Below are positions 33,605 to 54,060 of a stretch of DNA of 64,000 bases, one piece after another. Numbering within the stretch: position 1 is the stretch's first letter; each line of letters begins with the position of its first letter. The DNA comes from Gamarada debralockiae (taxonomy: Eukaryota; Ascomycota; Leotiomycetes; Helotiales; Hyphodiscaceae). The notes below the pieces were generated by a model, which saw nothing but the letters and a program-made list of their open reading frames with translations, had not been told where the DNA came from and searched no databases. The DNA lies in NCBI GenBank assembly GCA_002803225.1, contig NXFV01001959.1, positions 124,001 through 188,000 of the forward strand. Direction: 5' to 3'. The position numbers and the translations under genes are program-made.

Positions 33605-34926
33605 TCATAGCCTGGCCTGCAATCCAAACAACGCCAGTGATGAGAGTATGAGAGTAGCTTTGGTGACTGAAGAGCCAGTGAGTCCACCTACCACCGACGT
33701 TAAGGCAGCGGCTTGGAGGGGGGAGATGATAGGGACAAGAACTCGGGCGGCGTTGAGCTGCGTACCCTCAAAGCCGGGAAATGAGTATGTTTGGCGCTCA
33801 GCGATTTTAGAGTCTCGGACTTGCTTGGCGTCCCGGGCGAAGGGGTTGATGATATTGGACTCGGTTTGGCTGAGCGGAATAGGAGCTGGGCCACAATCAA
33901 TGTCGATTGGGCTGGTGCCACCGCAGAATTGAGGCTGACGCTTCTCGACTTCATAAACAGATCTTCTGACGGGTCCGAAGCCGATGGCTTCTCCGGTCGA
34001 ACCTTCTTGCTGTTGGGCGTCACCAGGTCCGTTGTTGAGTTGGGTTCCTTCAAAGCCAGGGAATTGACGCTTCTTGACTTCATCGGATCTGGTGGAGCGG
34101 GCGATGATAGCTGATTCATCAGCAGCAGGATGGTTGAGTTGTGTGCCTTCGAAGCCGGGGAAAGTCCAGGTTTGGCGCTTCTCCAAGAGGGCTATAAGGG
34201 GAGACTTCTCAACTTCACGAGCCGACTGCAATTTCGGAGTCAGCAATCATTCAACAGAGGTGAAGAATTAGAGCTGAGCCGGTTTTATGATTTTTGAAAG
34301 GAAATCAAAAAGGACGTACTACAGCACTATCAGTCATGGTGATCTTGGTAGCGTCATCATCACGAGCCAGCTGTGAAAGTTCCAGAGTCAGCAATCGCTC
34401 AACATATGTGCGGGGTTGGAGTTAAAGGGCTTCATTTCCGTTTGACAGGAATCCAAAAAGGACATACCATAGGACCATCAGTCAAGACAATCTTAGCAGC
34501 TTCATCACTGCGAACCCACTGTGAAAGTACCAGTCAGCAATCACTAAATAGAAGTGAAATACTAGTGCTTTGTGCATCTTGTGAGTTGAAAGAAAACCAA
34601 AAATGACATACCATAGGACCATCAGTCAAGGAGATCTTCGCAGCTCCGTCATCACGGGTATTGAGAGGTGAAGCAGACACTACAACGAGGTTGGAAAGGC
34701 CAAGGGTGAGAACGGTAATGAGTGGCATTGTCAAACCAGCGACAGTGAGGATGGCAAGAGAGGACAAAGGTGAGAGGGAGTAGGCACTGCCGTTGTAGAT
34801 GCTCTCCCAATGGTTGACAAGTGATTTGCCGTCGCGAGTCTCAACGAGAGGACCTGCGGGATTGCCTTGAGCATGAGCAAAGGCGGAGGTGGTGAGGACC
34901 AAGCTGAGAGTCTTGAGGGTGTACAT
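33605..34926 (-). CDS. Secreted precursor with Kex2-type repeated peptides (FPGFEGTQLN family)
   Basis: Four exons, all introns phase 0: 34926-34612, 34518-34468, 34370-34320, 34225-33605; 345 residues. Residues 1-20 are a signal peptide (MYTLKTLSLVLTTSAFAHAQ). A second signal-like stretch begins at an internal Met (MPLITVLTLGLSNLVVVSAS), so a shorter start is possible. The end of exon 1, all of exon 2 and all of exon 3 each encode one 17-residue module of the type xxR(D/S)D..A(A/T)KI..TD. The C-terminal half carries peptides that follow basic cleavage sites (EKR, KKR, EKR, ER) and start with Gln: residues 157-170 (QTWTFPGFEGTQLN), 193-203 (QFPGFEGTQLN), 236-251 (QPQFCGGTSPIDIDCG) and 284-297 (QTYSFPGFEGTQLN). 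The last 48 residues end in a hydrophobic tail that could be a GPI signal. Layout matches fungal Kex2-processed repeat proteins (pheromone precursors, dikaritin RiPP precursors). No UstY/DUF3328-type enzyme is seen nearby. Function unknown. Confidence 0.85.
34226..34662 (-). repeat. Tandem exon-intron duplication inside the repeat-peptide gene
   Basis: Three consecutive units, each a 51-nt phase-0 coding block followed by an intron of 93, 97 and 94 nt. The blocks encode NTRDDGAAKISLTDGPM, WVRSDEAAKIVLTDGPM and LARDDDATKITMTDSAV. The introns are also alike: the donor side reads GTAYGTC..TTTTTG and the acceptor side carries GATTGCTGACT followed by a short pyrimidine run and CAG. Whole genomic units were therefore copied, not only the coding part. 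Each middle exon can be skipped without changing frame. Confidence 0.85.
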
Positions 34927-35298: not shown

Positions 35299-36704
35299 CT
35301 AGCAGATATCCTCAATCTTCTGCTCGACACCGTCATGAGGACCAAGATCCAGTTTCAAAGTGCGGCCAAACAGCTCGAGAAGAATCTCAAAGCAGATCTT
35401 CGAAATTGCAGGATCATATCGACCTTTCGAAAGTTCATCTCGAATAAATGCATCTTTTTGCCATCAGCATACTTTAGAGGTTCTTAGAAAGGGGCAATCG
35501 AACTCACGCTGTGCCCAAGCAACTTCATACCAACTGAAAACAACACCCTTCTCCCTCAGTGTCTTCCGAATGAGGTCTCTTCCCTCAGGAGGAACATGAT
35601 TATCTTTGACACCATGAATCATCGCCAACTCAGCCTTGATTTCCCCAGCACGAGCTAAGCTGTCATCTTTCATACCTAAACCGAGCGTCGCACTGTGGAG
35701 GTCGGTTGCAAAGTAGGTTACACCCGCAGAGACACGGGGGTCGAGTGCACAGCGGTATGCGAGGTGACCACCGAGACACATTCCTGTGGTACCGATTCGG
35801 CCATTACAGGTCTTGAGAGAAAGGAGATAGTCGATTGAGAGGGTTGAATCTTCATCGTAGCCAGCTAAAGTCTGCAATTGTCAGAATAATTCCATTTTGA
35901 AGTCTGAATGCTCGGAGTCTTGCAAGGGAATGATATGGACATGGCCATCATAGAAGAATTTGGAAGGAACTGTCCCTTTGTCGAAGACCAACTCGGGAGG
36001 GAGACAACAGAGGTAACAAAGCAGGATGGAACAGTTACCTTTTTGACCTTCCACTCATTTCCGGCATCTGTTCCAGGAACATCATACGCTAAAGGTTCGG
36101 GGCCCGTGAATTCATGATAGGAAGAAGGAGCGGCAACAATGTAGCCTTGACCGGCAATCTGGCGTGCGAATCGTGAAACAGGACCGGTTACTATGGGCGA
36201 ATGAGATTAGCATGCGGAGGAAGTAGTTTTTGGGGACACGTGACTGCATCGACAAGACACTGTTGAGAAGACGAGAAAAAAGAGCGAAGACGTTGAGATA
36301 AGGTTCAGATTGGAGCTGAAACGACCCCCAGAGTAACTACTCGACGAGTTGTTGGAATGATGGGAATGATGCATCTCAACGGTTATGCACCCCGCAGTGA
36401 GGCCACAAAGGAGAAATCAATCCTTGCCAGCCAGGAGGTAAACATCCTTCCTTACCTTGGTAGATCTCGCTGAAGAGAACAACACCCGGAAATCGTCTGG
36501 AGAAGCTTCAGCTATGCTCATGTCCAGTCCTCAGCTAGCTAGATAACCCACGCATTGGGATAATTCGGGATGGTGGGATGGAACAAAAAGATCCCTGGGA
36601 CTGTCAGCCTTGTTCCATGGGATTGAAGAATCCAATTTACTCATTGACCCCTCCTTTCCATCAGCCTTGGTCGGAACGTCTTTATGGGTTTCTTGGATCA
36701 ACAT
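35299..36704 (-). CDS. Dienelactone hydrolase family alpha/beta hydrolase
   Basis: 272 residues from six exons: 36704-36641, 36594-36552, 36496-36456, 36190-36039, 35871-35508, 35453-35299. The phases close throughout, and the small first exons give the typical opening MLIQETHKDVPTKADGKEGS, FLFHPTIPNYPNARFPGVV and LFSEIYQVTGPVSRFARQIA. The nucleophile elbow is GMCLGGH, with the Cys nucleophile usual for dienelactone hydrolases. The acid residue is likely the Asp of IHGVKDNHVPPEGR, and a C-terminal GPHDG may supply His. The family hydrolyses dienelactones in aromatic breakdown or related esters; the true substrate cannot be read from sequence. No signal peptide, so cytosolic. The long intron 36455-36191 contains no exon I can support. 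Confidence 0.93.
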
Positions 36705-52270: not shown

Positions 52271-54060
52271 ATGCTTGCCCCACTTTCTGCCCTTCTCCTT
52301 GGTGCTACCATTGCTCTGGCTTCCCCAGGTATGTGTCCTCGGATTGTTCATAGATTCTGAGCGATTCTGGCCGGATTCATGACTTCTTACTTCTCCTGCT
52401 GAGGGTCGTCAATGTCCGCTTGGCTCTAATCTTTCACCTCTGGGCAATTACTAACACCGAAATTTTCATAGTTGTTCAAGTACGAACTGTTGCGTCCTTG
52501 AATACGGCTGCTTTTGACGAGGCTCAACAAAGAGATGATACCGCTACTCGCGCTTTCTCATCCACCGAGATCAAGGTATGTCAGCTGAGGCGTCCCGAGA
52601 CCAGATCCTGACTGATTTCCAGACTTCTGATGGCCAGTGCCTCTTTGTCGATGAATTATCCGGAGACTTCCGTGCGAACTTAACACCCGTTCAAGTCGCT
52701 GCTTGTAATGGAAGCGCAGGCCAACAATGGGACATCATCACGTCTGGGAAGCATGACGACCAAGCTGGAACAATGCTGATCGTCAGCACATTGGTGGGTG
52801 ATCTTCCCTCCTCACCTATATATGTTCCTAATCCATCCAGACTCAAGCATGCCTCAACTTCGATCCTCGTCGCGCAGCTGGAAACACGGTCATTCTATTC
52901 TCTTGTGGTGGACGAGCAGATGGGGGTGGAGCAGTCACGAACTCTCAACTCTTCAACTTCACTGGTGGGGCTGGACCTTTGTCTCTACAGCCCTTGAACC
53001 AAGGAGGAACTTGCTTAGCAGTCACATCCGCCAATGTCCTTGATGAGGCGAAATGCGCTTCGGGAGATGCGAGTCAAACCTTCACTTTTGGTGGAGGGCC
53101 ATCCGGGTCCGTTTCTTCTTCTGCAGCTCCAGCTTCGACCTCAGCATCAGCTACATCCATCGAAGTAGCAGTAACTTCAGCTCAGGTATTGGCGCCTTCT
53201 ACCTCAGTGAACTCTGATTGTTCGATCACATTTGTCACCGTTACAAGAGGAGCTTCCTCATCCACAACCGCCGAAGCTGTTGCTGTCACGAGTGCTACAT
53301 CATCATCATCATCCTCTATTACTAAACTCGCTACAACCACGAGTTCGACTGAATCTTCATTATCAGCGGCTATAACCACTTCAGCCGCTGCTCAGTCGCA
53401 AGCAGATGCCAACCCAACAACGCCCGTCCCTGTATCACGTGCAGGGGGTGTTCTTCAACCTTCTTCGGCCGCTGAAGCCAATCCTCGCGATAACACAGCC
53501 ACACGAGCATTCTCATCTGTCTCTATCAAGGATGCGAGTGGTCAATGTCTCTTCATCGACCCCACCGCTGGTGATTTCCGTGAGAACTTGATCCCGGTTC
53601 AACTTCAAGCTTGTACTGGAAGTGCGGGGGAGAAATTCGATTTTATCACCGCTGGTGTTCACGTATGTATCAACAGCCCAAATATATTGGGGGAAAGGAT
53701 GCTGACTTTTGCAGAATAACGCCCCGAATTCCACACTCGTGGTCTCGAGCCTTACTCAAGGGTGCTTGAATTTCGATCCTAGAAGAGCAGCTGGCGATAC
53801 TGTGATCATGTTCTCTTGTGGTGGAAGGGCTGATGGAGGTATGTTATCTCCATTCATCTTTTGAGCAACTTCACTGACACTACCTAGGTGGTGCCGTCAC
53901 CAATTCTCAACTCTTCCCCTTCACGGCCGGGGAGACATCATTGACTCTCGCACCGGAGAATCAGAACGGCGCTACCTGCCTCATCCCCTTGAATGGGAAG
54001 CTTGACGAGGCAAACTGCGTCAGCGGTGATGCTGGCCAGTTGTTCACGATCGAGGCATAG
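52271..54060 (+). CDS. Secreted protein with two ricin-B/beta-trefoil-like halves
   Basis: 483 residues, six exons: 52271-52328, 52472-52575, 52623-52793, 52841-53662, 53715-53838, 53888-54060. A signal peptide (MLAPLSALLLGATIALASP) is followed by two homologous halves. Each starts (D)(D/N)TATRAFSS and contains GQCLF(V/I)D....GDFR.NL.PVQ..AC.GSAG, then CLNFDPRRAAG.TVI.FSCGGRADGGGAVTNSQLF and a final C...DEA.C.SGDA.Q.F. The halves are joined by a Ser/Thr/Ala-rich linker (about residues 200-320) that is probably O-glycosylated. The QCL..D....V....C....Q.W pattern suggests a carbohydrate-binding beta-trefoil. No enzyme domain. Secreted or cell-wall lectin-like role is inferred. The intron positions of the two halves do not match, which is odd for a tandem duplication. 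Confidence 0.88.
52520..54060 (+). repeat. Internal duplication: two copies of the same domain in one gene
   Basis: Copy 1 spans about 52520-53091 and copy 2 about 53479-54060. Copy 1 is cut by introns after STEIK and after LIVSTL; copy 2 is cut after ITAGVH and inside RADGG. None of the four positions is shared. Confidence 0.85.

Follow-up and report, generated by a model that had tools for sequence, protein, structure and literature searches.

A probable repeat precursor of secreted fungal peptides

The closest described counterparts of the gene analysed here are the Kex2-processed repeat proteins (KEPs; PMC6339444, PMC7329392, PMC9769878), together with the precursors of dikaritins and of ascomycete alpha-pheromones. 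In the sections of Umemura 2020 (PMC7329392) cited here, most KEP types were found in a single genus, 2560 of 7878 KEPs had no homologue, and the mean distance between a KEP gene and its DUF3328 gene was 3.09 genes, in the 22% of KEPs having one. KEPs were recognized in that survey by three repeats between dibasic sites. The corresponding rule given in the cited sections of Le Marquer 2019 (PMC6339444) was to cut at KR/RR and to look for three matching fragments, with the C-terminal fragment initially set aside and TMHMM-positive proteins discarded. Conserved cores named in the Results of that study include ustiloxin EDYXI, DADAATXYV[AV]D, YVW[GA][GS], SPPHKT, QKLKVD, and XSDW. Pyroglutamated KEP peptides were detected in Coprinopsis cinerea, according to the relevant part of Vogt 2022 (PMC9769878), which provides a precedent for peptides with an N-terminal Gln; KEPs of Coprinopsis were also expressed in Pichia pastoris in that work. 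The dikaritin precursors (ustiloxin, phomopsin, asperipin) resemble the present gene in having a signal peptide, which is putative in the latter, and Kex2-flanked repeats, and the alpha-pheromone precursors resemble it in their architecture of repeated linear peptides for release by Kex2, a release that is predicted for the present gene, with no UstYa nearby.

The window, which is the whole 64,000-nucleotide stretch of DNA that was analysed, contains a gene that shares with the KEPs, as they are presented in the cited sections of the three papers, a signal-like start, repeats bounded by KR, KKR, or RR, an N-terminal Gln, and the absence of any other domain. It differs from them in its core, which was not found in the main texts searched, in having only two cores within internal dibasic fragments, in a composite unit (AR/RR and a spacer before KR), in its hydrophobic segment and tail, and in a second repeat array that derives partly from 51-nt exons. 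The gene and its peptide array are real, occur in four sequences, and are best explained as an undescribed KEP family, and we consider a peptide precursor of the KEP kind to be the probable product. An earlier, sequence-only reading had proposed a new secreted peptide family; the family does appear to be undescribed, but it represents one more type within a known and very diverse kind.

Gene structure and protein layout

The gene was read on the minus strand, from an ATG at 34926 to a stop codon at 33607-33605, as four exons that join without a change of frame into a protein of 345 aa. The introns are all GT-AG, in phase 0, and are 93, 97, and 94 nt long. The span assigned by the sequence-only reading, 33605..34926, was exact, and its exons join into the 345-residue protein. 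Its description of four Gln-headed peptides after basic sites (EKR before QTWTFPGFEGTQLN, KKR before QFPGFEGTQLN, EKR before QPQFCGGTSPIDIDCG, and ER before QTYSFPGFEGTQLN), three of them with FPGFEGTQLN and one, QPQFCGGTSPIDIDCG, a Cys variant, agrees with the translation. Two further elements, array B and the hydrophobic segment at aa 51-88, were absent from that reading. The features are as follows, all on the minus strand.

33605..34926, minus strand: whole gene, ATG to stop; exons 34926-34612, 34518-34468, 34370-34320, and 34225-33605
34870..34926, minus strand: putative signal peptide, aa 1-19, ending in AHA ahead of QGNP; read by eye from the translation
34663..34776, minus strand: hydrophobic segment, aa 51-88, a possible membrane span or helical hairpin; from hydropathy, helix 53-84, and the P0001 alignment
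34612..34659, minus strand: array B copy 1, TRDDGAAKISLTDGPM, at the end of exon 1; from the translation, with a relative at G000:C815
34468..34518, minus strand: array B copy 2, exon 2, 51 nt, phase 0, WVRSDEAAKIVLTDGPM; from the translation and exon-intron comparison
34320..34370, minus strand: array B copy 3, exon 3, 51 nt, phase 0, LARDDDATKITMTDSAV; from the translation and exon-intron comparison
34067..34174, minus strand: unit 1, aa 157-192, QTWTFPGFEGTQLN, tail ESAIIAR, spacer, and KKR; preceded by EKR; core 34162-34133
33938..34066, minus strand: unit 2, aa 193-235, QFPGFEGTQLN, tail AIGFGPVRR, spacer SVYEVE, and KR; preceded by KKR; core 34063-34034
33794..33937, minus strand: unit 3, aa 236-283, Cys variant QPQFCGGTSPIDIDCG, tail ESNIINPFAR, spacer, and ER; preceded by EKR; kept in P0003
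33608..33793, minus strand: unit 4, aa 284-345, QTYSFPGFEGTQLN, which continues into the hydrophobic tail; site ahead of it ER (in P0003, EH); core 33781-33752
33611..33721, minus strand: C-terminal tail, with a low-confidence helix at aa 308-344 and a hydropathy peak at aa 299-321, a possible membrane part or GPI-type signal; from hydropathy and AlphaFold

In order, the protein consists of the signal-like start, a QGNPAGPL..(R)D..LVNHWE..Y.G segment that the alignment showed to be common to the window protein and its relative P0001 (see below), the hydrophobic stretch, three copies of array B, the four Gln-headed units, and a tail that is largely hydrophobic. The signal peptide is plausible, judging by eye from the hydrophobic start and the boundary between AHA and Q. 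No Pfam domain scored above its cut-off in the window protein, its exons, or its relatives. A DUF2213 match to P0001 (E 0.16; 12.4 bits, the cut-off being 22) was disregarded, and the two matches from a PDB profile search (E 1.4 and 1.5) were judged from their alignments to be chance. AlphaFold modeling of exon 4 with four sequences gave a mean pLDDT of 45.5, with one C-terminal helix and otherwise no structure, and modeling of exon 1 from a single sequence gave a mean pLDDT of 55.8, the longest helix being 53-84. The lack of a predicted fold in these low-confidence models agrees with an unfolded peptide precursor.

Relatives and conservation of the core

Protein searches revealed three relatives: P0001 (245 aa, JGI, E 4e-29), P0002 (138 aa, ENA, E 1.4e-20), and P0003 (100 aa, ENA, apparently a fragment, E 4.7e-15). 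These were the sole matches at E values up to 10, with about 8000 candidates scored per search, and more may exist. No relatives were found among viral contigs (34 pattern matches), or among bacterial and archaeal genome contigs (16 pattern matches). Four weak genome matches (C390, E 0.149; C1096, E 0.28; C432, E 0.151; C921, E 0.034) were taken as chance.

The three relatives were found largely to keep the basic sites and the cores, with small changes in the latter, which supports the Kex2-type repeat precursor layout that the sequence-only reading had recognized. The cores of P0001 are QGFEGTQLN, GFPGFEGTQIN, and QGTYTFPGFEGTQIS, those of P0002 are QYPGFEGTQLN and QFPGFEGTQLN, and the units of P0003 are QPQFCGGTSIIDIDCG and QTYSFPGLEGTQLN. 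In the relatives, an Arg precedes the unit in six of seven cases (3/3 in P0001, 2/2 in P0002, and 1/2 in P0003). Across the 11 units of the four proteins, Arg directly precedes 10, a dibasic pair precedes 8, and 10 are headed by Gln. The exceptions, which count against this layout, are unit 1 of P0001, which follows NR, unit 2 of P0001, which is headed by Gly rather than Gln, and the last unit, which follows a monobasic ER in the window protein and EH, with no basic residue, in P0003. The Cys unit is retained in P0003, and QPQFCGGTS.IDIDCGPAP.PLSQ is common to both proteins. Beyond its signal-like start, a pair of KR-Q units, and its tail, P0002 contains little.

In the window protein, FPGFEGTQLN is present three times, at aa 161, 194, and 288, along with one Cys variant. 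This repetition is beyond chance, as neither a repeated 10-mer nor a threefold 5-mer appeared in any of 2000 shuffles of the protein. The three 30-nt core copies differ pairwise at 4, 6, and 6 positions (16 in total), all of them third-position and silent, and there are no amino-acid changes among the three cores. Nine silent substitutions in a row have a probability of p ~ 4e-6 under a random model with a silent fraction of 0.25, transitions weighted 2, and codon bias ignored, nine being the minimum number of substitutions counted from the codons. Since all of the differences are silent, the copies are neither very recent duplicates nor products of conversion, and the core peptide itself is, to judge from this substitution pattern, kept by selection. 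An exact DNA pattern for GFEGTQ was found at 3 places in the 54.3 Mb genome, all within the window gene, compared with 1 place for the reversed control pattern. A ten-residue core that is unchanged within the gene, and that recurs slightly altered in divergent relatives, suggests a defined receptor or target.

Literature searches for FPGFEGTQLN, PGFEGT, GFEGTQ, FEGTQL, and EGTQLN gave no occurrence in main texts, though supplementary tables may carry the family unnamed. LTDGPM, TDGPMWAR, DGPMWA, and QFCGGTS were likewise not found in main texts, and AIGFGP was found in one plant paper that is unrelated judging by its title. Shorter pieces of the core were absent from the main texts of PMC6339444 and PMC7329392, and FPGFEGTQLN showed no likeness to the conserved cores named in the Results of PMC6339444. 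The protein also contains no known pheromone core, in keeping with the earlier view that this core is unlike known pheromone or RiPP cores.

Unit anatomy and predicted cleavage

The units follow a common plan, in which the core is succeeded by a linker of variable length, a tail ending in AR or RR, a spacer, and KR. Alignment of the units revealed that conservation reaches past the core, the residues after TQLN being partly kept. The tails of the seven internal segments read AI[GD]FG..[AR]R in 3/7 and [EK]S[AND]II..AR in 4/7. The spacers are short and often acidic (SDDEVS, SEDEVE, DEDDGVE, SVYEVE), and are followed by KR, RR, KKR, or ER (EH in P0003), and then by the next unit. All seven internal segments contain [AR]R and a subsequent S, D, or E at a distance of 8-13 residues upstream of the next unit, compared with 0.8-8% of shuffled segments, a comparison that is descriptive because the pattern was picked post hoc and the proteins are related.

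The mature peptide had been expected to be pyroGlu-TWTFPGFEGTQLN, ending at TQLN. This expectation has to be abandoned, because no basic residue directly follows TQLN, and Kex2 and Kex1 would therefore not give a peptide with that end. The next Lys or Arg past the core lies at +12 in unit 1 and at +23 in unit 2; in unit 4, it is a single Arg at +3, leading into the hydrophobic tail. As read from the sequence, Kex2 and Kex1 would release peptides of about 25-35 aa, unless another protease trims them further, and the masses expected by the sequence-only reading need to be changed for these longer products.

We propose that the precursor would enter the secretory pathway, that Kex2 would cut after KR, KKR, or RR, and perhaps after ER, that Kex1 would remove the trailing basic residues, and that the exposed N-terminal Gln would be converted to pyroglutamate. 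Each peptide would then consist of the core, Q..[FY]PGFEGTQ[LI]N, the linker, and a tail ending near AR/RR, about 25-35 residues in all, with the short spacer discarded. The predicted peptides are QFPGFEGTQLNNGPGDAQQQEGSTGEAIGFGPV and QTWTFPGFEGTQLNHPAADESAIIA, with the first Gln as pyroglutamate, the second being predicted also with the spacer RSTRSDEV. A Cys peptide, from QPQFCGGTSPIDIDCG onward, is predicted to contain a disulphide. The P-domain of a proprotein convertase (Kex2-type) gave one match in the genome (C647, 58/86 positions). The constancy of the core across copies and relatives points to a specific binding partner, so that a cyclic toxin is less likely than a linear peptide that serves in signalling or interaction; a signalling role as such is put forward tentatively. 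Should the peptides prove real, they would offer concrete molecules, those with QFPGFEGTQLN as well as the Cys variant, with which to test whether peptide hormones outside mating are used by fungi.

Cutting the window protein at KR/RR leaves two of its FPGFEGTQLN cores on internal fragments and one, the third, on the C-terminal fragment, so that the three-repeat rule of the surveys is not clearly satisfied; in P0002, one core is internal and one C-terminal. By the rules given in the cited sections of their reports, the KEP surveys would probably miss this family. The structure of the unit suggests, more generally, that precursors in which dibasic sites are few and hydrophobic parts are present escape current KEP searches.

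Hydrophobic segments and topology

The hydrophobic segment at aa 51-88 (38 residues) has a hydropathy of up to 2.15 over 19 residues, with the peak within aa 51-78. It is kept in P0001 and is missing from P0002. A Pro in the middle of the segment, present in both the window protein and P0001, would permit a hairpin. In each of the four proteins, the last core is also succeeded by a hydrophobic stretch, which extends to the C-terminal end itself only in P0001 and P0002, where its position would be that of a GPI signal. The segment at aa 51-88 presents the chief difficulty for the peptide-precursor reading, since a single stop-transfer span after a cleaved signal peptide would put the cores on the cytosolic side, out of reach of Kex2. 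P0002, which has KR-Q-core units and a signal-like start and lacks the segment, argues for lumenal cores, and on this comparison of sequences a lumenal location is likelier than a cytosolic one.

The same features bear on an alternative in which the product is a protein of the cell surface or wall, kept there by its hydrophobic parts, with FPGFEGTQLN serving as a binding or display motif and the basic sites being incidental or partly used. Both the segment at aa 51-88 and the stretch past the last core in 4/4 proteins would suit such a protein, as would the lack of a dibasic site at unit 4 and the EH of P0003. Against it, Arg stands directly ahead of 10 of the 11 units and Gln heads 10 of the 11, no folded domain was predicted in the low-confidence AlphaFold models, and P0002 offers little more than its signal-like start, two KR-Q units, and tail. 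We regard this alternative as rather unlikely.

A second repeat array

Array B, a second repeat of 16-17 residues around R.D.A.KI..TD, is encoded by the end of exon 1 and by exons 2 and 3. Its exon-intron units are mutually 67-71% identical, and the introns are 66-72% identical, which indicates that the array probably originated by tandem duplication. As exons 2 and 3 are in phase 0, they could be skipped without a frameshift. Array B is absent from the predicted P0001 and P0002, the fragment P0003 being uninformative, and from these sequences it looks like a separate module.

A gene-like frame elsewhere in the same genome (G000:C815:48711-49364) is filled with a repeat related to array B. It contains five G[PL][MI]WAR joints, with a sixth in the next open frame downstream. 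Like the window gene, it has repeats of the AR..A.K...TDGPM type, a preceding hydrophobic stretch, and, in the equivalent position, a possible intron donor (GTAC); unlike the window gene, it lacks the FPGFEGTQLN core. No in-frame ATG was read ahead of the repeats in this frame, so the gene may be broken or may start in another exon.

Taken with the hydrophobic parts, array B allows a further scheme, which we consider improbable, in which a membrane-tethered precursor gives rise to two series of peptides unrelated to each other (array B, encoded in part by 51-nt cassette exons, and FPGFEGTQLN), with some copies released and the last core kept on the hyphal surface. If this were true, fungal cells would obtain from one gene a signal that diffuses between them as well as one that acts on contact, and the class would have been overlooked by surveys in which membrane proteins are excluded and three repeats with dibasic flanks are required.

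Pheromone and dikaritin alternatives

It is very improbable that the gene encodes an alpha-type mating pheromone precursor of the fungus with an unusual core. In favour of this reading, the genome contains a STE2 receptor gene (G000:C777:25202-26090, E 2.8e-66), and the DNA patterns of known cores gave no pheromone precursor. From UstYa, STE2, and the form of the introns, the fungus is taken to be an ascomycete. WCxxxGQxC was found at 8 places, including a single WCxxPGQxC, and PYGxPxG at 1, and none of these nine places, read in frame, was a pheromone precursor, the patterns being blind to other cores, to cores split by introns, and to gaps in the assembly, so that the genome may well hold a canonical pheromone gene. 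The window protein itself has no WC..[PR]GQ.C or PYG.P.G core, and its core has no likeness to the Pezizomycotina pheromone cores described in the cited part of PMC6339444. Its units are longer than those of alpha-pheromone precursors, with a long tail, and they lack repeated STE13-type XA/XP dipeptides, QP following only one of the four unit sites (unit 3).

For the dikaritin alternative, UstYa (DUF3328) was searched for at E <= 0.001. The whole genome contains 67 matching places, many of which are pieces of one gene, and 0 of the 67 lie on C1019, the contig to which the window belongs (274 kb). This bears out the claim of the sequence-only reading that no UstY-type enzyme is nearby, and makes a dikaritin unlikely. 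Of the 33 stop-to-stop frames of at least 170 aa in the window, the Pfam comparison covered 19 in addition to the gene itself. These gave WD40 (2 frames), TOG, G-patch, pieces of a CDC24-type RhoGEF, ankyrin, SAPS, a ricin-B-type lectin match, and an FAD monooxygenase, with 7 assigned to no family, and no typical RiPP enzyme or RiPP cluster was found among them. A dikaritin-type RiPP precursor, with UstYa enzymes from other parts of the genome cyclising its cores, would fit the abundance of UstYa places (67) and the aromatic residues of the cores, but is very improbable given the contig without UstYa, set against the average DUF3328 distance cited above, the 19 frames without a typical RiPP enzyme, and a core that hardly varies among the relatives, in contrast to the high variability ascribed to RiPP precursors in the cited part of a paper on lichen RiPPs (PMC12048977).

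Other observations

UstYa places are spread over many contigs (e.g., C304, C497, C581, and C1048), and several are clustered. On C304, ten of them, some being pieces of one gene, lie at 62.6-74.3 kb. The clustered places are probable dikaritin-type clusters. Within the window, the frame at 52832-53716 has a weak match to a ricin-type beta-trefoil lectin (PF00652, 29.6 bits against a cut-off of 29), and a dienelactone hydrolase frame (PF01738) at 35464-35880 adjoins the precursor gene on the same strand.
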